Source: Saccoglossus kowalevskii (Eukaryota; Hemichordata; Enteropneusta; Harrimaniidae). Taken from it: 22,668 nucleotides of DNA. The stretch covers positions 827,620 through 850,287 of the forward strand of contig NW_003123904.1 in the NCBI RefSeq assembly GCF_000003605.2, given 5' to 3'. The notes beneath the pieces are model-generated. The model did not search any database. It was not told where the DNA came from and was given only the letters and a program-made list of their open reading frames with translations. Shown here in pieces: positions 3,215 to 19,184 of this stretch (the first letter of the stretch is position 1; each line of letters starts with the position of its first letter). The translations under genes and the position numbers were made by a program.

Positions 3215-3423
3215 GGGAGATACTATTCCATAAGGTTCGGTGGATGTTAGTTAGTATTACCGTGTATGACACCATCAATACCAGTGCATCTATATCATCG
3301 CCTTCTGTTGCATTGCTATCTCATCAATATCAGCCAGCTTCACCAGCAACAAGCCAAAGCCAACTCCCATTTACATCAATTGAGCCAGCAACAAGCCAGT
3401 CAATTCCCATCCACATCAATTGA
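3215..3423 (+). CDS. Candidate terminal exon running into the minisatellite
   Basis: The acceptor is TTTACCCATAATAG ending at 3214. With the G carried over from 2912 the frame is open for about 69 codons and becomes Ser/Thr/Pro/Gln-rich (SASISSPSVALLSHQYQPAS). It then enters the minisatellite in the frame that reads SIEPATSQSQLPFT. The first complete repeat unit is 40 bp instead of 42 bp, so the frame shifts and meets TGA at 3421-3423. If real, this is the C-terminal exon of the NRF-1-like chain and most of the array would be 3' untranslated. It could equally be non-coding sequence that is open by chance through composition. Confidence 0.35.
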
Positions 3424-3983
3424 GCCAGCAACAAGCCAAAGCCAACTTCCATTTACATCAATTGAGCCAGCAACAAACCAGGCAACTCCCATTTACATCA
3501 ATTGAGCCAGCAACAAGCCAAAGCCAACTCCCATTTACATCAATTGAGCCAGCAACAAGCCAAAGCCAACTCCCATTTACATCAATTGAGCCAGCAACAA
3601 GCCAGTCAACTCCCATCCACATCAATTGAGCCAGCAACAAGCCAATCAATTCCCATCTACATCAATTGAGCCAGCAACAAGCCAAAGCCAACTCCCATTT
3701 ACATCAATTGAGCCAGCAACAAACCAGGCAACTCCCATTTACATCAATTGAGCCAGCAACAAACCAGGCAACTCCCATCTACATCAATTGAGCCAGCAAC
3801 AAGCCAAAGCCAACTCCCATTTACATCAATTGAGCCAGCAACAAGCCAAAGCCAACTCCCATTTACATCAATTGAGCCAGCAACAAGCCAGTCAACTCCC
3901 ATCCACATCAATTGAGCCAGCAACAAGCCAGTCAATTCCCATCTACATCAATTTAGCCAGCAACAAGCCAAAGCCAACTTTAC
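3341..3983 (+). repeat. Minisatellite, 40- and 42-bp units, higher-order structure
   Basis: About 15 tandem units share the core ATCAATTGAGCCAGCAACAA. Full units start at 3375, 3415, 3457, 3497, 3539, 3581, 3621, 3661, 3703, 3743, 3783, 3825, 3867 and 3907, with partial copies at each end. Their lengths are 40,42,40,42,42,40,40,42,40,40,42,42,40,40 bp. The 42-bp type has CCAAAGCCAAC; the 40-bp types have CCAGTCAA, CCAATCAA or CCAGGCAAC. Blocks 3415-3660 and 3661-3946 repeat the same order of unit types, the second with one extra CCAGGC unit. One frame has a TGA in every unit and the 40-bp units change frame, so no single frame crosses the array. Confidence 0.95.
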
Positions 3984-6137
3984 CTTTTTTACTTTGCCAG
4001 TAACATCAAGGATGGAAGGGAATGGTAAATCAAGAGAAAAATTGCTGTTGTCGTTATCGTTAATAATTGTTATTGTGTGCACAATAACTTTACTAATTCT
4101 ATTCAAAACTTCATCAAACTTGGTCACCTTATTCATCAGTATAAAGTCTTCCCCGAGTATGAACAACAGTTGTCCTGTATGAAAATATGCAAAAATTGAG
4201 ACAATCTGATAAAATATTTTGACTGCTTCTACTTGACTGATCACTGGCGATACACATTCAAAGCTCACTGATCTCAGTGAAAATATACATTGTTGTATGT
4301 GTTCAATGAAGCAAATCATTTATCTTGTAATATTATCCTTGGTAATGTATCTCCCAATACTAGACTAGGTTTTTAAACCAACTCATGGTGAGAGTTTTTG
4401 CACAGTCTGATACACATTTGCAAACCTACCAATAAAAAACAAGTTATCAGAAAATCAATTTGACAAATGGAAATTCACCGGAATTTGTTTCAGCTATTAG
4501 AACAGAATGATAGAGCTTTTATAATAATAGTTTAAAAACACACTTCAAAAACAAAGATTCTCAGGAGGCAACAGTACTTGTTGACTTCTTTCTCCACTGG
4601 ACACCAACTAACAATTTAAGTTGATTTACATACAAAGCAGAGCTTTCAACATGATAGCTATTCATAGAGGCCATTTTTTACTTTTCATATAATACAGTAG
4701 TCACACAATAAGACAGTTCATATTTTTCTCAGTGAATCATTAATTTTTACAGACACCTGTACAAAATACCTGGGCAAAAGCCAGCTAAGACATTTGTTTT
4801 ATACTAAAATTGCTTTGAATAAAGCTGGAAATTATGACCCTTAAAATATTAAACAAATTTGGCACAAATGTTTTTGTATGATATTTAGGTCTATCAAGGA
4901 CATTCGGTAGACTGCTTTCCAACTGTTGTTTCAATCCCAAAACTTGTTTGTATTCAAAATTATGACAATGCATATTGAAACAAACTATGATAAAGGGAAT
5001 AATATTATATAACAAACGACAAGGTCACCAGAGTTCATCTATGTTTGTTCAGTTTATCAAACTGATGACACCAACTTACAGGATGAACATGTGTACATAG
5101 ACAGAAGTGATTTATTTACATCCTTGCACATCATAACCATCAAAGTCAAACTTTGCAAAGTCTCCCAACCTTCATTCAAAAAGTGAACACTGATTAAACT
5201 TAATAAAAAGTATAATCCAAATACGGTTTGTTAAATTTTGTGTATAAAATCATGAAAAACATTCTCTTCAAATAAAATTTCAATATCAAAACCTGGCAGT
5301 ATACTACAAAATGACAGCAAAGAAAAATATTTAAATGGAACTTCATTTCAATTAATTTAGCCACTTCATTATTAGCTAAATTTACAGTAATTGGTAAAAT
5401 AATATAATGGCTTTAAACTAAATGTTACAGAATGTCAAATACATTTTGTGAAACATCCTGGCCAAATCAAATAGATAAATACTCTTAAAAAGATAGACAC
5501 TTCATTTTACACAATATATATTAAATCAAATTGTTATGATGGCTTTATTTAACTTTTCTATTTGTCAAAGCTAGGCTGAGTGCTGCATGCAATATAAAAT
5601 TATCAGGCAACATGTAGGCAAGCTGTGATCTGATTCTTGAGATGGCGGCATTGGTTTGTTCAGATTTGCGAATTCAGTCAAGCAATTTCACGTTTTGCCT
5701 TGTACATGTCCATATTATACCCAGATGAACAAGATGTAAGAATTAAAAGGAAAATAAGAAATTACTTTAGTACTTTTATAATCTATTTATATTGAGAATA
5801 GAGTTTTTGGTTATAATTTTACTGCAAATCTGTTAAAAGCTTTGGTTGTCATTTGACTAATATTGGTTCTGTCATGGAAATGAATATAACACTAAAAGTT
5901 GTGTATTGAGTATCTCCTTTGTTTACATTTTGCTTGTCCCTAGACTGAAAATACATACACTTACCCAGTATGAATGCACCAATAGAGCCTGTCTACCAAG
6001 AATCTGGTACTTTTAAAAAAATCTGGTTCCTTAGAAATGTAATTGTCTGGTATTAGTTACAAAGTTTACAATGACAACTATATTTCGTTCAGAGCATACA
6101 TAAATGATGAAATGTTTTGAAAACCGTGAATAAGGCA
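3984..6137. other. AT-rich stretch without a supported gene
   Basis: No recognisable protein motif was found on either strand. A small plus-strand frame from about 4011 to 4182 follows an AG at 4000 with a pyrimidine tract. It holds one hydrophobic run (LLLSLSLIIVIVCTITLLIL) that could be a membrane segment, but nothing links it to a gene. A minus-strand frame at 4785-5015 is likewise unassigned. Further C-terminal exons of the minus-strand KDZ-like gene would be expected here, but I could not find the motif that usually follows. Confidence 0.4.
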
Positions 6138-6422: not shown

Positions 6423-6504
6423 GTTTTAATGCGTTTTAATCATCATCCAAAGCCCTAAAATACATTATTTAATTCAATTTTACTTGGGTAATTAGTGCAC
6501 TGAC

Positions 6505-6733
6505 CTGTTCATGCAGTATTGATGTAATTTACATGAGTTATCATACAAAATAATTCTTGGTGCTTTTTGAAAACGCTGTCTGATGATTCTGAAGGGAATG
6601 GCTGATTCATGCTGCTTCATTAGTTGAATACTGAGGCACCAATATCAAATAGTCTGATATAGCTATTCCATGCCAGTCTAAGTTGGTGAAGTGGAAGGTG
6701 GATCATGGATGACAAAGTTTTTGTGTATACGCC
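6505..6733 (-). pseudogene. KDZ-type transposase-like exon, core motif
   Basis: The minus-strand exon begins after TTATATTTTAG (AG at 6735-6734) and ends at a GTCAGT donor (6504-6503). The first part reads PLHQLRLAWNSYIRLFDI (6691-6641). One frame over, from 6644, it reads YWCLSIQLMKQHESAIPF and then KAPRIILYDNSCKLHQYCMN, ending at 6505. The AP-x-x-I-x-YDN-x-C-x-LH-x-Y-x-x-NR motif is a signature of KDZ-type transposases and related invertebrate proteins as I recall them. The LR-x-AW-x-x-[FY]-x-RL-x-DI segment normally sits just before a CxxC domain; here that domain is absent, and the two flanking parts abut with a frame change. The exon connects in phase 0 to the one ending at 6935. Confidence 0.6.
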
Positions 6734-6934
6734 CTAAAATATAAGAATGATAATATCTATAATGCTATATATAGTACTATATACAATACTCGTCAATTAA
6801 GGTTATAACTCAGTGTAACTAAGTCTCGCACACAAAAATATTTTTCATAAAATTTCCATACATGTATTAACATTGTAGTGCCAATAATAACATTTAGTGG
6901 ACTAAAAAAACACAAAAAACTAATAAGTGTGTAC

Positions 6935-7068
6935 AGTATGTAAATAAAGGTAGCTCTGTAGCAAGCCATAATGTACAAGTATGTGGTTGTTTAAATTTAA
7001 CAGCAAATCTTCTTGCCCATCATAATACAAAAGGCAGTCACACAACCCGATACTTGGTCTGAAGAATA
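6935..7068 (-). CDS. KDZ-type transposase-like exon, CDC..YYDG motif
   Basis: This exon starts after a very good acceptor (TTTTTTCTCTTTTCAG, minus strand). Carrying one G from the exon ending at 7954 it reads VFFRPSIGLCDCLLYYDGQE, then DLLLNLNNHILVHYGLLQSY, and stays open to a weak donor at 6934 (T|GTACAC). The CxC-x-x-YDGQ-x-DLL-x-NL block is conserved in the invertebrate family that also carries the C-x-HG motif of the upstream exon and the YDN-x-C-x-LH motif of the downstream one, and the order here is the expected one. Phase 1 in and phase 0 out agree with both neighbours. There is no internal stop, but the gene around it is broken. Confidence 0.6.
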
Positions 7069-7906
7069 CTGAAAAGAGAAAAAATCAATTCATACTTAAT
7101 TTAGGCCTGTGGTCCACATTGGATGGAAATTTGTAGACATATTATGTCAACAAATAAACTCAGCCATGAATGGTTACCCTTTGATGTTCCTGCAATTTAA
7201 TACCATGAAAAACTACATCGCCCCGTCAGGCATGTGTTGGGTTTGGAGCATTGCGGAGGGCCCAACTCGCGTGACCTTGTCAGGCTAACTAAAAGGCACA
7301 ATTAAATAAAATCAATGTTTTATTGTTTAAGGTAGACGCCTAGTCATAATTTTTGACAAAATTGGTCATAAATCGCATGACAATGTTCATTTGAAGTTAA
7401 TGTCTCATGGTACAATGAAATAGCATTATTTTGTGTTACAGTTATGCTTTTTGAGAAACGTGTCCTAATATTTCTTGAAAATTGCTATTTTTAGAAGAAT
7501 TCCATAGAACACAATGTTAAAGAAAAATTGCATTTTTTGACAATTATTAAAACCCAGATTTTTTAAATAATACTCCATCATTAACAATATATGATTTTTT
7601 CACCCCATGTCACCAGGCTAGATTTTGAGATATTGCATATCCCTGTCACAGGAACCTGTGGTAAAAGTGTTATAATGGTGTCAAAATGGCGACTTTCCAC
7701 TAAAATACAACCATCAATTTCTTGAAATAAAGGCTGGTGTTAGGTGTTAGGTCATTGTCTTTATATTGCCTTGGAGTACAATTTATTGCAAAATGATTAA
7801 ATTCTGGGTTTTTTAATTTATGAGTAGGCTTTTATCTTAAGTAAACTGAAAACTACAAGAAGAATTTACAAGTGTTTAGCTTTTATCTCACTGATGGTAC
7901 AATTTT

Positions 7907-7950
<44 letters not shown>

Positions 7951-7953
7951 CAC
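7069..7953 (-). other. Inferred intron containing an (AT)n run at its 5' end
   Basis: This is the AT-rich interval between two minus-strand exons whose phases agree. A 40-nt TA dinucleotide run starts two bases after the donor hexamer. 7220-7290 is locally GC-richer, but I see no tRNA or other RNA fold there. No open frame with a motif occurs on either strand. Confidence 0.45.
7910..7949. repeat. (TA)20 dinucleotide microsatellite
   Basis: An uninterrupted 40-nt run of TA. It lies immediately inside the inferred donor site of the minus-strand exon that ends at 7954. As transcript it would be (UA)n, able to fold back on itself. Confidence 0.97.
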
Positions 7954-8170
7954 CTTCATCAGTAATCCTGTCCACAGGATCATCTTCATTCCACGCAGAG
8001 CCATGCTTACACAAGCTAAATGGTTCATCAGCTCTAGGAATAGATGGTATCAGATATTGTGGTATGCGTAACTGTCCACACTCTTGTTCGTCATACACAG
8101 TTTTCAGCCTTGGAGGTAATGGGTAAGGAATAGGCCAATAAGATACACATTGAAAGTTACTCCTTCTTGG
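7954..8170 (-). CDS. KDZ-type transposase-like exon, N-terminal C-x-HG block
   Basis: The minus-strand frame reads SYWPIPYPLPPRLKTVYDE (from about 8143), then LRIPQYLIPSIPR, and FSLCKHGSAWNEDDPVDR, ending at GAAG|GTGTTA (exon end 7954, phase 1). The PIPYPLP-x-x-L stretch followed by C-K-HG and an acidic DPV turn is the N-terminal signature of the same family as the exons at 7068 and 6733, and the phase fits the exon starting at 7068. The frame stays open upstream to beyond 8242, but that DNA is also read on the plus strand by the CxxC exon. I therefore place the boundary between 8150 and 8234 without being able to fix it. Confidence 0.6.
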
Positions 8171-8233
8171 TTCATGTCTCTCCGTATCTGGGACAGGCTT
8201 CTCATTTTCTTCCAACCATTTGATTGGGAAAAG

Positions 8234-8716
8234 GAGTTTCACTGCAACCAGTGTGGCATCAATCCTGAGATCATCATTTGTGATGGAACATCAATTGAAC
8301 TTCACAAACCGCTACTAAATGGGCTGAATGGTAATGAAGATGTCAGCAGTCTGACGAGTATTGATGGAACAAAACATGTGGACCGTGTTTTTATACCAAG
8401 CCCTCAAGCAAGGAAACTCTTGCTTCAATATCCCGGTATTAATCCTCAATCAAAAAATACTAATCTCCCTCCTGTGCCTCTGTCTACAGAACAATATGGA
8501 AAACTGGTGTCACTGCTTCAAAAACACAGTCACCTGTCCTCTCTTCTAGATGTACTTGAAAGAATCAGCATTAATGGCACACATCTTTTGGCACCATCTA
8601 ACTACAAATTATTTCTTCAGGATATTTCCCGCAATACACCTGCTGTTGCTCTGCTGCAGCTGAATGTGTCAAAACTATGGAACACAATGAATACTGCTTT
8701 ATCAGATACATGCTAA
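8234..8716 (+). CDS. CxxC-domain exon of a KDZ-associated protein, opposite orientation
   Basis: The plus-strand frame is open from 8150 to the TAA at 8714-8716. Recognisable sequence begins EFHCNQCGINPEIIICDGTS at 8234, after an AG (8232-8233) with a pyrimidine-rich lead. It continues with DRVFIPSPQARKLLLQYPG and ends in a Leu-rich region (LVSLLQKHSHLSSLLDVLER). In the family, C-x2-CG-x2-P-x-I-I-x-CDG-x-x-[IL] directly follows the LR-x-AW-x-x-[FY]-x-RL-x-DI segment and precedes the hESp / YDN-C blocks. Those flanking blocks are here on the minus strand at 6505-6733, with exactly this part missing. The exon is therefore displaced and inverted, or comes from another copy. There are no internal stops in about 160 codons. 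Confidence 0.6.
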   Translation, partial: EFHCNQCGINPEIIICDGTSIELHKPLLNGLNGNEDVSSLTSIDGTKHVDRVFIPSPQARKLLLQYPGINPQSKNTNLPPVPLSTEQYGKLVSLLQKHSHLSSLLDVLERISINGTHLLAPSNYKLFLQDISRNTPAVALLQLNVSKLWNTMNTALSDTC

Positions 8717-8871: not shown

Positions 8872-8885
8872 CAGAGGTCGCGTTA
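8872..8885 (+). repeat. hAT left terminal inverted repeat
   Basis: CAGAGGTCGCGTTA. It pairs with the right terminus with one mismatch (G/A at position 11). A palindrome GCGTCC-CT-GGACGC follows at 8900-8913. Confidence 0.85.
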
Positions 8886-9026
8886 GGTTTCAATAAAACG
8901 CGTCCCTGGACGCATGTAACAAAAAAATGAGTCCCGGTAAATACTGCGTGCGTTTTAATTAATGGTTTCCCAATGTGACCTGATCACGTGTAACAACATG
9001 TTTGCGCTCATTTTTTAACATACCAA

Positions 9027-11064
9027 TTAAACTTTACGCCTGTCATTTCTTTTAAATATTTCAATAGCTCTTGCATAATTAAATTGTTCAATGTCACGTC
9101 CTTCCATGGTCAGAATCATCAAATTATCGCTATGGTCAGAAGTAAGTCTGCTTCTTCTAGCCGTAGAAATACGACTCTGTGCGCTGAACCCACGCTCACA
9201 CTGCACGGTTGACGCTGGTATGATAAGCGCTATACTTGCTAGAGTGGTAAATTGCCGGAACATGTCTTTATATTCCGTTAATAAAACACAAGTTCGCGTA
9301 AAGTTAAGTCCACCGTGATTTTTCATTACATGTTTATAAGCCAGACATTCGCCTCTCAGAACGGCTGGTTCAATTATTTGTGGAACTCCGTCAACATCTG
9401 TTAAAACATTAATAATCTGTTGTAAGGCATTATTTCCGTGATCACGGAGTTCCCCGTAATCACCAGGAAAACCTGTCGGGTTGAGAAGTACGTCCAAAGC
9501 GTTGATTGTATTAATTTCTTCAGACGGAAATCTATCTTCCAAATGTGATCGTAGCTGTTGAATAAATTCCCGTCTCACAGTTTTGTGGCTTTGTATATTT
9601 GCTCTGCCTGCAAAAGTCATTTCATGTCCTTTATAATACACACTATTTGTCACCCGGGTCGTCCAGTAAATCATGAGCTGTCTTGACAGATGGCTTGATA
9701 ATTCCGAGATTTACATCCTCCTGTTGAAATATTTTATTGAGTCTGTCCATAATGGGCATTACATCAAGTAGCATGTACGTATTAGCCTCAAAACTGTATT
9801 TCGAAATCTGTTTTAATAAACCATCAGCAGCGGGGTTGTTACGACCGTCTCCGCCAAACTGTGTCACAAGGGGAGACCAATTATGCGATCCAGCTCCCGT
9901 AATCTCTCATATCGAGTAGCAGAGTATTTAAAATAGTTGAATATTGTATTAACCATTTGCCGATAGTGAGAGATTGATTCGATCTTCTTTGCAGCACCCG
10001 ACGAAGCAAGAGCGACGCGATGAGCGGCGCAGTGCACAGATGTCATCAGCAGGTTGAGCTGCTTTAAACGAGTACTCACGCCCGTCCGCCTCCCTGTCAT
10101 AACTGCGGCTCCATCGGAACCAAATCCCATTACTTTAAATATTGTTGTGTTCATGTCATTTAAAATAGATGTAATTTTGTTCGTTATAGTTTCTGCATTT
10201 CCGTTTGGTACATCATAATTTCCAATCAGATGAGATTTCGCTACTCCGTCTTTTGTACAACATGCATATACAATCAGTTTCTTTTTTACATTGATATTCG
10301 TGGTTTCATTAACTAAAATACTAATAAATGGGCTTCCATTTATTTCTTCCTGAATTTCCCCACGTACGCAGTTTGATAGGGCAACTTGAATATTAGTTAC
10401 GGATGAGTGATGTCTGTAAATATTGTCAATATTCACATTTCCATTTATATTTTGAAGTTTCATCAGCTATTTCTTCACGTGCCATCCAATATACTGTTCG
10501 CATTTGAACAACGAGAGTATATCTGCCTTTTTTCGGCTTTCTATATTTCTAATTTTTATTTCTTTTGCATTCCAATAACACTCACTGCATCACCATGCTT
10601 GTGTCGTCTCAGCGAAGATTCTTGAAAATCTGTGCAGCCACGAGTATACGCATTTTGTTGTGCTCCCTTTTCACACACACGGCAAAACATCTTACCACCT
10701 CGATATTCTAGCCATGGGTATTTTTTCTCCCAGTCAGGAATATATGAACGCAATTACCGTTTGTGAGTCTCAATTACACGTACTGGATTAGAATTATCGC
10801 TTCCGGGTTGAGATGAACTCGATACAGATGGCGAAACCTCGTCGCTAGCACTCTGCTCTGGTCTCCCGGTGTGGAAGGGGCTTCGTTGTCATCACGAGAC
10901 ATTGACGTAGATGACAGAGCATCGTCGCAAATTTGGTTTCTCGTCGTGGATTCAGCTTCATTGCCGTCATGAGATATTCTTGACGTGAATGACCGAGCTT
11001 CGTCAGTTAAATTTCCACAGCGGGGTTTATTAAAATAACTGGCTATAGTTAGCTGTTTAGACAT
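9027..11064 (-). pseudogene. hAT transposase (ZNF862/KIAA1586-like), multiply broken
   Basis: The likely start is MSKQLTIASYFNKP at 11064, then an acidic Ser/Asn region with NEA-x-ST repeats. A BED-like finger follows at 10753-10556 (DWEKKYPWLEY, CRVC, then SLRRHKHGDA). MRTVYWMAREEIADE (about 10503-10459) is in another frame. The RNase H core is at 10463-9864: ILVNETTN, GFGSDGAAVMTG and HCAAHRVALA. A middle part lies at 9867-9643, and the C-terminal dimerisation region at 9674-9027 has LIIPASTVQCERGFSAQSR. Frames change near 10830, 10556, 10450, 9870 and 9660, and a stop lies at about 10757. The usual DESTD around the first catalytic aspartate reads NETTN (10310-10296), so catalysis is probably lost independently of the frameshifts. 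Confidence 0.85.
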
Positions 11065-11456
11065 GATGTTTACAGGCATTATAAACGTTAAAATATGACT
11101 GTTTTGTCTCCACCCCAGCACGAGAGCAGGCGGCATGCAAATTACGTTGGCAATTGCTGTCAGATTACGCACATGTCATCCAATAAGAATATTCATTCGG
11201 CAACATTTACGGACAATGTTATTACTTTGTGACAGTTTTCACTTGGTCCACGGGCAACTGGAATCACCCGCTGGTTTTTAATTTGTTTATATCCAACCAC
11301 TGTGACAATATGTTGTGATTATAATTAATGATACATTGTGACAGTAACTATTTTTACTCAATGCGCAAAACGGTTTATCCCGTACGCACGTCCACTCAAT
11401 GTTTGTATGCGTACAAGTCGATTTAACTGCGTCCCTCTGAACGCATAATTTTGCGT

Positions 11457-11470
11457 TAATGCGACCTCTG
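11457..11470 (-). repeat. hAT right terminal inverted repeat
   Basis: On the plus strand TAATGCGACCTCTG, the reverse complement of the left terminus at 13 of 14 positions. The subterminal GCGTCCCTCTGAACGC at 11429-11444 echoes the palindrome beside the left end. Confidence 0.85.
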
Positions 11471-11476
11471 AGTGTG

Positions 11477-12363
11477 ATAATACTAAAATATGTTCTCATT
11501 TAACTTGCAAGTTGTAAAATCACTTAGGTGTTTTTCTAAAATACCAATTTAAACACGTAAGTGGATAAAATACAGTTAGAATGTGTGAGGAACAAACCAC
11601 AACAGCTTACATTGAAAGTACTAGTACTTGGAAGTTTTAGAATTTAACATGCATACCACAAGATGGTTCTTACCAGTAATTCTATTGCTGGATTAGATGT
11701 AGATAACATGTACTGTACACTGCATGAATTGGCTAAAATACAGATATATACAGGTCTTTATTTGTAGGTGTATTTCGCAATGCTTATTAGGTAAAATTTA
11801 GATTGGGCCCCCAGGTCTGGTTTGTTTGATTACAAGTTCTACACTAAGCCCAAACATAACAAACTCCAGGTCTGACATTGCCACCCCAAACAGTCTACTG
11901 GACAAAGGGTGAAATAATAGAACCAAACTTGACTTAAAATTGTTATCTTTGCAAAAAAGAATGTACCAAAAATGATAGAACAAAAACATAAGAAATCAGT
12001 GAACATAAAGTGCACTGAGAATCTTTAAGTTTGAAATTAAGATTTAGAAGATGTTTTCACGGTGATGGCTGAGACAATGGATGTACATACACTAACACAG
12101 CTAGTACATCCTGTTTCTAATGATTTACTTGTTTATCTTGATTGGTGCATTGTTTAGTTTTCTAACAAAACACCAGCTCATGTGTTCAACTATTTTATGA
12201 ATACATATATTCATTATTGTACCTCAACATGATTTCATATGCACTTCTCCCATATTTCATGCTGCACATTTTTGCACATTGATACAAAGCAAGGGTTCAG
12301 GGTAATGAATTGTTATTGATGGGAAAACACTTTGGACAAGTATGATTTTACATTACTTTCCAG
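11477..12363. other. Non-coding interval
   Basis: AT-rich DNA between the hAT element and the exon chain beginning at 12364. No motif-bearing frame was found. A minus-strand frame at 11798-11989 has no recognisable content. Upstream exons of the 12364 chain may lie here but were not identified. Confidence 0.45.
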
Positions 12364-12542
12364 AATGTCAACAGATGCTAGAAAATTTTAATGCTCTGGT
12401 AGACGTATGTAAGCAGACTGCCACAGATCAAAGTGAACTAAAGAATGAGATGATATCCACATTTAATGATTTAAACAAAGCTATTGTGGAGGCTATTCAG
12501 CAGGAAGTTAAAGATGAAAATTGTTGTCCAGCTGAGCTTTCA
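12364..12542 (+). CDS. Exon a of an unidentified multi-exon gene, coiled-coil-like
   Basis: The exon lies between CATTACTTTCCAG (ending 12363) and CTTTCA|GTAAGT (GT at 12543). The frame enters in phase 1 and leaves in phase 0. It is open: CQQMLENFNALVDVCKQTAT, then a Gln/Glu/Lys-rich helix (LNKAIVEAIQQEVKDEN) and CCPAELS. The heptad-like spacing of Leu, Met and Ile suggests a helical or coiled-coil segment. I do not recognise the family from this exon alone. Both splice sites are close to consensus, so this is one of the better exon calls in the window. It precedes three further blocks with compatible phases. Confidence 0.5.
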
Positions 12543-12803
12543 GTAAGTACTGATACAAATTTCATAAATAGGGGAGCTTTGCTTTACTTTTTATTCGTCA
12601 CTTTGAATATAGATCAATGAATAAATAAAGTTGGATTTTTGATTATTATGAAGAATGAAATTGACAAATAAGTTTTTTTATAACCACCTTAAATAAAATC
12701 GTACAGTTTTATACCAATTTAAGTATTTCTTTCTATGTTATAGCTCAATGGTTGACTGTTTCAATTATGCACAATGTTTGCGATTTTCTTGTTTTTATTC
12801 TAG

Positions 12804-14159: not shown

Positions 14160-14760
14160 GAATATACCAGTCCAGACTTTATCTTGGCTTCATCACCGAT
14201 ACATTCCCTTCAAATTCTTCCAGGTCTCTGATATTATTTTCTTCTTGAATTTTTTTAAGCACATCAAAATTCAGTCCTGGCTTACCAACAGTAAATCTTG
14301 TGTAATCTTGCAGTGTGTTTTCATGGGGCAGCACAAGGAATTTTGATGCCCGAATCATTTTGTATGCTGCTGCAGACTTAGCATGTAGGGCTATGCACCA
14401 TGGTTGGATGTCACTTAATTTGCTTTCCCAGTACAGCAGCCTCCCTCTGTTGCTCCCACAGTAGTCGAAGTGGACTTGAACTGGGGAACTCTTGCTTTAC
14501 CTTAGTATGATTTGCCTTCATTACTTCCAAGAATGAGTTACTCATTGGATTCTTTAAAGGATGGCTTTGGTCTTCGATCGATTTTTTAACTGTGTTTTGC
14601 AAGTGACTCACTTTCCTCTTTAAAAGTGTCCTATCTTCCTGTAGCTGCCTGGCTTTTAATTGAAGTTTATCTCTAGTCAGATAGTCATTCCTTATCGTGC
14701 TAGTTTTTAAATCTTGCACACTGGATGCATTATTTTGTTTTGTCCTTTACATGGACATCC
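14160..14760 (-). pseudogene. P-element/THAP9-like transposase relic
   Basis: From high to low coordinates the relic holds a Lys/Leu/Gln-rich coiled coil (LQLKARQLQEDRTLLKRKVS) and SSSPLRLLWEQQREAA (ending near 14427). A frame change follows, then WCIALHAKSAAAYKMIRAS, LVLPHENTLQDYTRF and, after another frame change near 14195, GDEAKIKSGLVY (14197-14162). The order coiled coil, SP-x-RL-x-WEQQ, W-C-x-x-L-x-x-[KS]S-x-x-AY, LP-x-x-x-TL-x-DYT and DE-x-KI-x-x-GLVY matches P-element and THAP9-type transposases as I know them. The Asp of the DE-x-KI motif is the first catalytic residue. The THAP finger expected upstream and the rest of the RNase H fold are missing. Confidence 0.7.
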
Positions 14761-16555: not shown

Positions 16556-18625
16556 TCAACTACAGTAAATCTTGCCAGTATCAATTAATAAACCCTCACG
16601 TTCAACAAATAGCTCATCAACAATAATTGACCACATATATATTCAAACTTCTATGATTATTGTGTGCGCTGTGGCACTATTCTGACAGATCACAGTCCCT
16701 CTGTGGACAGATATAACAGATCATTTTCCCATTTTTGCGTTCATTGAAAGTCTTGACAAAATGTACCAAAGCAGAATTTATTTTATACTCGAGACTTTTC
16801 CCAGTATAATATTGAAAATTTTCATCTGAAATAAAACAGTGTCAGTGGTCTGATGTCCTTAACACCTTGAATGTAAATAATGCGTATAATACGTTTTGTC
16901 TATTTTTAGCACTATTTGTGACAAAGTGGCCCCCTTAGTCAAGATAGAAAAAAGGTCAAAACTACCCAAGAAGCCATGGATAACGACGGGCATTACAAAA
17001 TCAATCAGACACAAAAATAAACTATACGAGAAAGTGATTAAATGTGATTACAATCCAAATAGCCCGTCTGCTTACAAAACCTACAGAAATATTCTTTATA
17101 ATAATATAATATATTAATATCAATATAACTAAAAGTATAACTATTCTTAGAAAATAAAAAAAAATATTACTACAATTTAATTAATCTAAATAAAAACAAC
17201 CCTACTAAACTCTAGAAAAATGATAAACGATTTAACAGTAAGGACCACTGGGAATGGTGGTAGACTGCCTAAACTGCTTACCATAGACTACTCGTTTTCT
17301 CAATACATGAATATTCATGAACCAATAATAATAGCTAACTATTTCAATAGATTATTCGCTAATATTGGGGAGGAACTTGCTATGAACATTAATACATCTG
17401 CCGATCCCATGGACTACTTCACAACTACCAATTTGAATTCTTCCTTTCTCCAACCAGTTACCATCCATGAAATGAAATTATTAGACCCGCGTAAATATTG
17501 TGGTCATGACTATAATTATTCCCGTCTTCTAAGAGATGCTGCCTCTTTCATTAAAATACCTTTGTCACATTATAAATCTGTCCTTTATGTCTGGTGTATT
17601 CCCTGACTAACTAAAAATAGCCAAAATCACTCCTATTTTCAAAAAGGTTTACCCTATTTGTCTGGTAATTACAGACCCATCTCAATCTTGCCCATTATCA
17701 GTAAAATTATTGAAAAAAACTCTCCACAAACAATTATTTTCCTTTTTTGACAAACTTAATATTATCAATCAGCACCAATATGGATTTCGCAGAAAATACA
17801 GTACCAAGCTTGCGTTAATAGATCTTTTCTATTAATTAATTAATGAAATTGATGAAGGTAATGTGATGGGGGTATTCCTGGATTTTACTAAGGCCTTTGA
17901 CACGATAACATTCTTCAAATATTTCCAAATTTCCAAACCTTTAAAGTGGCTTGAAAACTATATATTGAATCGAAAACAGTTTGTTCAAGCTGATGGCCAT
18001 ACCTCCTCCACTCTCCCAATTAATTATGGTGTGCCGCAAGGTTACATCCTTGGACAGTTACTTTTTCTTATTTATATAAACGATATTCCTGCATCATCAT
18101 CTTACTACAAATTTAAATTATTTGCTGATGACTCCAATCTTTTTCATTTATTTTCCAGTAACAGTATACCCAACGCTGAAATTGACTTACATCTTGATAT
18201 GGTGAACACATGGTGTAACACTAATAAACTTAATAAATACCAACATAACTAATTACACAGTATTCCACCTCTAAGAAACAGCTGGTAAACAAACAAAACA
18301 TACATTTGAACAGTGCAGTTCTCATGGAAGTCGATACTACTCATCTTGGTGTATTGATAAACATTTCACATGGAAGTCGCATATTAATAGAGTTTTAGCA
18401 AAGGTAACGCCTTTAATTGGTTTAATTGCTAAGCTCAGACATACACTTCCCAAATATGTTCCTATCCTTCTGTATCATTCTTTCTTTCTTCCTCATATCT
18501 ACTATGGTTTAGAAGTGTGGGGTAGTACTTATCGCACATTTCTAGACCCTATATATAAACAACAAAAAAAGCTTTTTCGCATTATACTATTTAAAGATTA
18601 CTGTGCACACAGTAAACCTGTTTCG
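16556..18625 (+). mobile_element. CR1-like non-LTR retrotransposon, truncated at both ends
   Basis: A 5'-truncated ORF2 copy. The C-terminal end of an apurinic-type endonuclease is seen as SSSTIIDHIY (16611-16640) and ITDHFPIF (16713-16736). A linker QWSDVLNTLNVNNAYNTF (from 16843) and KPWITTGITKSIRHKNKLY follow, then the reverse transcriptase, ending in an RT C-terminal region (WKSHINRVLAKV, WGSTYRTFLD, QQKKLFRIILFKDY). The match stops near 18625, where unrelated sequence begins, so the 3' end and any 3' repeat are lost. Clade assignment (CR1/Jockey group rather than RTE or L1) is from these motifs only. Confidence 0.8.
16556..18625 (+). pseudogene. Endonuclease/reverse transcriptase ORF2, broken
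   Basis: The enzyme would nick target DNA and copy the element RNA. Seen in order: endonuclease tail (16611-16736), PWITTGI (about 16976), IANYFNRLFANIGEELA (17328-17378), YRPISILPIISKIIEK (about 17670-17718), QYGFRRKYSTKLAL (17776-17817), VFLDFTKAFDTI (17872-17907), GVPQG (18028-18042) and FADDSNLF (18121-18144). The palm Asp residues are kept. Breaks: several frame changes (near 16780, 17110, 17610 and 18252); a frame change at a run of seven A (17713-17719); a TAA at 17834-17836; and an apparent deletion between DFTKAFDTI and PLKWLENYI, where about 15 residues of the usual spacing are missing. It is inactive. Confidence 0.8.
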
Positions 18626-18757
18626 TGGCCACTGTTGTGTGTCAAAATGCATTTTAGTGGTGCCAAAACCGCCCCCAGTGGCGAACCAGAGAGAGGTCTG
18701 CATAACTCCTTTCATTCAAACTCAAAAAATGACGGCAAGTCTACACGAAGTAAAGTT

Positions 18758-19184
18758 TGAACGGATATCGAAGTTTTGGCTTTGCTGAACATATGGCGAG
18801 AGGACGAGCTTCTTCATCAAGTAGATTCCAGTACACGAATAAGAGACATGTTTACGAATACATTCGTGAAAAATTGGAGAGTATGGGATTTGGTGGCTAG
18901 TCATGTGATGCAAATTTAAGCAAAAGTTTAAAGCGACAGAGGATCACAACCGTCAAAGTGGAAAGGATAAAATAACGTGCCCGTTTTATGACGAACTTAA
19001 AGAAATACTGGGATTTAAAGATTCCATAAACCCTTCAGTAAATATGGTGATTGAAATTACTGATACGTACATTTTTTTCAATTTCACTTTCATATCGCGA
19101 TATGTGAATAAATTAATAGAACCTGAACTGAATCCTTCTTTCATTGGTGAACTATGTTTTCCGGTAATAAGCATTTCACATTGA
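18758..19184 (+). pseudogene. Myb/SANT-like (trihelix-type) DNA-binding domain relic
   Basis: Three frame segments make one domain. The first is TDIEVLALLNIWREDELLHQ after a TGA (18758-18760) where the first conserved Trp is expected. The second is NKRHVYEYIREKLESMGF (18838-18891), followed by a TAG and CDANLSKSLK. The third is KFKATEDHNRQSGKDKITC then PFYDELKEILGFKD (18924-19022), open to TGA at 19182. The order W-T-x2-E-x-x-ALL-x-x-W, VYE-x-I-x-x-L-x-x-x-GF, C-x-x-K-x-x-x-LK and the closing FYDEL-x-x-ILG is that of the Myb/SANT-like 4 (trihelix) family. Such proteins are common in invertebrates and are also the second gene of PIF/Harbinger transposons. A Harbinger transposase fragment lies 780 bp away, pointing toward it. 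Confidence 0.75.

Follow-up and report, generated by a model that had tools for sequence, protein, structure and literature searches.

Results

A Multi-Exon Transposase-Like Gene with One Block on the Opposite Strand

The window, the whole stretch of DNA that we analyzed, comprises 22,668 nucleotides of Saccoglossus kowalevskii and forms the final part of a contig 850,287 bases long within a 572-Mb assembly. It contains the remains of a multi-exon gene that we divided into seven blocks, six of which (A to F) lie on the minus strand. Block A (7954–8194) is an exon piece with an open frame and a GT donor at its end, and block B (6935–7068) is an exon with LCDCLLYYDGQEDLLLNLNN and AG/GT borders. 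Block C (6641–6733) is the front part of an exon: it has an AG acceptor and ends at the residues LFDI, the expected place of the seventh block. It is followed by block D (6504–6638), the rear part of an exon (MKQHESAIPF...YDNSCKLHQY) with a GT donor at its end. Block E (5961–6041) consists of FKSTRFLVDRLYWCIHTG and then a GTAAGT donor. Block F (5551–5731) is the last coding block found, and it carries an in-frame TGA at 5680–5678 and a frameshift shortly after. Of the seven blocks, five (A, B, C, D, and P) have open frames, and five (A, B, C, D, and E) keep a GT or AG border.

The seventh block, P (8220–8680), contains a CxxC cluster (HCNQCG...IICDGT) and is the only one on the plus strand, where it faces A head to head. 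The similarity of A to its relatives starts at approximately 8194–8184, and the stretch 8195–8219 between A and P could not be assigned. P is about 460 bp long and lies in a frame (8120–8716) that runs for 198 codons without a stop. Its left edge falls at 8220–8222, somewhat before the start at 8234 given in the original prediction; its right edge lies between 8677 and 8741, protein similarity reaching to approximately 8677 and weak DNA alignments continuing out to 8741.

The original prediction joined three minus-strand exons in compatible phases. For A, B, and C (6733–6641), this holds, with AG/GT borders, but the third of its exons (6733–6505) is not one open exon. The frame of D is off by two bases from that of C, and reading through from C gives LFDI-GASVFN and a stop. 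The residues YWCLS, proposed to abut LFDI exactly where the CxxC block belongs, overlap LFDI by 4 nt, and D is read in another frame; P does follow C in a relative (L009).

The Neighborhood of the Gene

Beyond P lies a 2.6-kb hAT-like DNA transposon (8872–11470, minus strand) with the ends CAGAGGTCGC and a Dimer_Tnp_hAT domain (E 1.7e-8). The 6-bp repeats AGTGTG stand outside its ends, while the usual hAT target repeat is 8 bp. Its coding frames are broken, and it contains a below-cut-off piece of DUF4371 and a piece of a C17orf113-type zinc finger. The element is a later neighbor and lies outside the rearranged gene.

Other features of the window are a tandem repeat array at 3276–3979 (82-bp unit, also 286 bp; about 7.7 copies) and LINE-type remains on the plus strand at 17190–18760 with a reverse transcriptase domain (E 1.9e-11), a 666-bp stretch of which is 90% identical to sequence within the locus of one relative of the gene (L013). 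A minus-strand frame at 14179–14496 shows weak, below-cut-off similarity to the HTH domain of the P-element transposase (E 0.013). An open frame of 103 aa on the plus strand (12309–12620), with GTAAGT inside and without a family match at E 0.01, could be an exon belonging to some unrelated gene. Introns and the hAT and LINE remains are in keeping with a eukaryotic genome. To find the 5′ part of the transposase-like gene, we compared the window with L024 and with the upstream regions of five relatives and obtained no match at E 0.01. Rfam gave no match at curated scores, and a scan of viral contigs yielded eight pattern matches, none of which was confirmed as a relative.

Relatives Keep the Blocks on One Strand and in One Order

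The plus-strand frame containing P, the sole query searched against the whole genome, matched six other places (L008 to L013; E 6.1e-12 to 2.0e-4) with protein identities of 37–52%. Five of the six have in-frame stops within the P block. Three are decayed copies found on one contig, all on the same strand (G000:C2719, 35.8–83.5 kb). No block query matched the left-hand neighboring 100 kb of the window at a cut-off of E 0.05.

We read the block order of each relative from a 10-kb stretch around the match, compared with the blocks of the window. All the blocks recognized, in all six, lie on one strand and follow the order A-B-C-P-D(-E-F). The most complete relative is L013, in which all seven blocks are recognizable (D weakly, with E 0.066), and L009 retains B, C, P, D, and F; the others have fewer blocks: A, B, P, and D in L012, A, B, and P in L010, P, D, and F in L008, and P with a weak C (E 0.048) and a weak D (E 0.025) in L011. 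Five matches off this strand or order, with E values of 0.09–0.78, were discounted as chance in the count: off-strand matches of C in L008 (E 0.47) and L004 (E 0.78), of D in L009 (E 0.09), and of A in L007 (E 0.38, within the query section that is antisense to P), and a second match of C in L003 (E 0.78). Further weak D matches in L007 were left out. Of the seven copies, only that in the window departs from this pattern, its P standing on the plus strand and its other blocks on the minus strand. The proposed family order of the minus-strand exons is thereby confirmed, D, E, and F matching the relatives on the minus strand as do A, B, and C, and so is the head-to-head position of the CxxC block relative to the first exon as the feature in which the window departs from the family.

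The individual blocks differ in their similarity to the relatives. In protein comparisons, B showed 61% identity with L009 over 33 aa and D 50% identity with L008 over 46 aa; at the DNA level, E is 75% identical to L013 over 65 bp, and the C block of L013 has the same GGCGTATA start as that of the window. The original prediction suggested comparing the nearest relatives of the plus- and minus-strand parts. When we scored all seven blocks against the six relatives as DNA, L013 came out on top for P (359) and also for A (259, compared with 120 for the highest of 10 shuffles; A is similar to L010 and L012 as well), E (198), and F (287), but not for the others: L009 gave the highest score for both B and D, in the case of D closely followed by L008, and C did not stand out clearly from the background. 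The test of a common origin rests therefore on four of the seven blocks.

P Is the Later Part of the Exon That Opens with C

In L009, the end of C (ARLLDI) directly abuts the start of P (DFTAAFCCLECG), without a gap and in one frame. In L013, the alignment of C halts 11 bases before the end of C, and that of P begins where those 11 bases would finish. The translations of L010 and L011, read by eye, show the same contiguity. P is thus the later part of an exon opening with C, and the idea of the CxxC block as an exon of its own has to be given up. An inverted and displaced exon of about 480 bp had been proposed; what appears to have been inverted and displaced is a piece of about 460 bp of the window gene, cut from within an exon.

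The junction of C and D lies at 6639–6641 on the minus strand, as aligned on L013 and L009, and includes the bases TTG that are also found at the start of P; the exact base is not fixed. Compared with L009, the similarity of C continues to 6640 (GATATTG) with a score of 102, which none of 200 shuffles equaled. Compared with L013, that of P starts from 8220 (TTGATTGGG), and extra upstream bases give no lengthening of the alignment. When extrapolated by a few bases, the C and P sides have TTG in common and no bases are missing between them. On the family sequence, the end of C and the start of P thus coincide within about 3 bp if the alignments are extrapolated and within 10 bp if they are taken strictly. 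Because the edges are less sharp in other comparisons, we give the fit as 3–10 bp. Against L013, C aligns to 6652 when taken alone and past the junction to 6608 when given the following bases; the extension was matched by 366 of 2,000 shuffled extensions and is weak, yet it blurs the edge of C. Similarly, the DNA alignment of P with L009 starts only from 8250. A 9-bp word, CAGTATTCA (in minus reading), occurs near both outer junctions and carries no weight as evidence, as 273 of 5,000 simulated pairs shared a word as long.

Sequence between P and D Was Not Found in the Window

In the relatives, 0.7–1.0 kb separate the start of P from the conserved part of D (about 0.7 kb in L013 and 970 bp in L009), of which the window retains about 460 bp, lying on the plus strand. 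D in the window starts inside its exon, at a point that is not reciprocal to the far end of P. Peptides of relatives that represent the stretch following P and the first part of exon D gave no convincing match anywhere in the window, the lowest E value (0.035) being that of D itself. The remainder of the C/P exon, an intron, and the first part of exon D seem to have been lost in the move, though a strongly diverged remnant would escape the search. As the sequences after P and before D were not found in the window, the move does not appear to have been conservative, and clean nested inversions are not supported as a sufficient explanation.

The Gene Is a Pseudogene of a Family Probably Related to KDZ Transposases

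The stop and the frameshift in exon F lead us to read the gene as a pseudogene, and it combines homology to collinear relatives of a local family with disabling lesions. In block P, it has decayed less than most of its relatives. The differences of P from the relatives are somewhat more common at third codon positions (for L013, 0.29, 0.28, and 0.39 at the three positions), which fits a coding past.

The family is probably related to KDZ (Kyakuja-Dileera-Zisupton) elements, to judge from a subthreshold CxC4 match and motifs read by eye. We scanned blocks A, B, C, D, and P of the window, pieces of L008 and L009, and D of L008 joined to E of the window with hmmscan. CxC4 was matched in block B with 13.3 bits, below the cut-off of 26.9, and in a joined A-B-C query with 11.7 bits; it was found neither in a joined five-block query nor in block B of L009. 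The KDZ transposase domain (PF18758) had no match among these queries, which are short and decayed. The motifs CDGT, YDNSC, VDR..H, and E..N, seen by eye, may represent the acidic catalytic residues in the KDZ order. The window has two inverted pairs of at least 30 nt, neither closely bracketing the gene.

The family resembles KDZ elements in having several exons, several copies, a CxxC cluster, and the weak CxC4 match in B. The window copy differs from them in being broken, in lacking PF18758 or an above-cut-off CxC match in the pieces scanned, and in showing no terminal repeats in our search. Published reports describe multi-exonic Zisupton copies in a nematode, with relatives in other metazoans (PMC9297572), 8-bp target duplications for Zisupton (PMC12730594), and KDZ-associated cysteine clusters in fish genes (PMC12062965).

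Discussion

In our view, the window gene is one decayed member of a small family of multi-exon, transposase-like genes and was broken by a local break-and-rejoin event, in which P was displaced and inverted and the sequence between P and D was lost; we assign this reading a probability of roughly 75%. A local break would have split one exon at roughly the codon that follows LFDI; the piece P of about 460 bp would have been rejoined, inverted, upstream of exon A and the end of C joined to the inside of exon D, with a few hundred base pairs between P and D being lost. Several double-strand breaks mended by end joining would be a likely route, as would two nested inversions and a deletion. The block order and orientation, the nearly coincident breaks of C and P, the undetected stretch, and the break in frame are observed, and from them we infer the mechanism, the number of events, their timing, and the loss, rather than the divergence, of the undetected stretch.

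Inverted exons have been reported before in copies of genes: in the Drosophila simulans clade, Y-linked copies of ARY have exons 1 and 2 inverted, and the authors make a case for microhomology-mediated end joining on these Y chromosomes (PMC8794474). ARY differs from our case in that exons 1 and 2 are inverted in duplicates, while in the window gene a part of an exon has been moved and inverted and a part of the gene is not found.

The strongest competitor to a single broken gene is that P was inserted from a second copy of the family and that C and D were joined by an independent deletion in the minus-strand copy. The family indeed has six further copies, three of them on one contig, the junctions are nonreciprocal at the far end, and the nearest relative of B and D is not that of P. 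On the other hand, such an insertion requires two unrelated breaks that nearly coincide within one exon, and a rough estimate for two unrelated truncations to meet gives 7 of 450 positions within 3 bp and 21 of 450 within 10 bp. Moreover, no close copy was found among the six relatives, identified with P as the only genome-wide query, or in the 100 kb to the left. The nearly identical break in C and P, together with L013 being nearest for P, A, E, and F, favors one broken gene over an insertion, which was put forward as the simpler explanation and which we regard as unlikely.

We give considerably less credence to the inverted piece being a misassembly or a chimeric library molecule. Short shared words, such as the TTG at the break, are also usual at the breaks of chimeric molecules, and the window is the end of a contig. 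However, the rearrangement lies about 14 kb from that end, the 850-kb length of the contig suggests long reads, and a simple orientation error leaves the undetected stretch between P and D unexplained.

A live locus with two divergent transcripts, in which the inverted CxxC block would now be a separately expressed plus-strand gene (a protein of about 180 aa, with an ATG at 8174) having a divergent promoter region in common with its shortened minus-strand parent, is highly improbable: the plus frame is open for its full length where five relatives have stops, and several splice borders are kept, but F has a stop and a frameshift, C and D are out of frame with each other, and the 16 codons from the ATG to P have no detected similarity to the family. 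If true, it would mean that one transposase-like gene was split into two by inversion.

The observations instead seem to reflect the decay of a gene by local rearrangement, and nothing in them points to a novel type of gene. They call for caution as an automatic annotation could take the plus-strand open frame for a separate gene. The window gene, broken locally in the manner favored here, would be an example of a decaying transposon-derived gene in which a part of an exon has been displaced and inverted and the edges on either side of the break still almost match.
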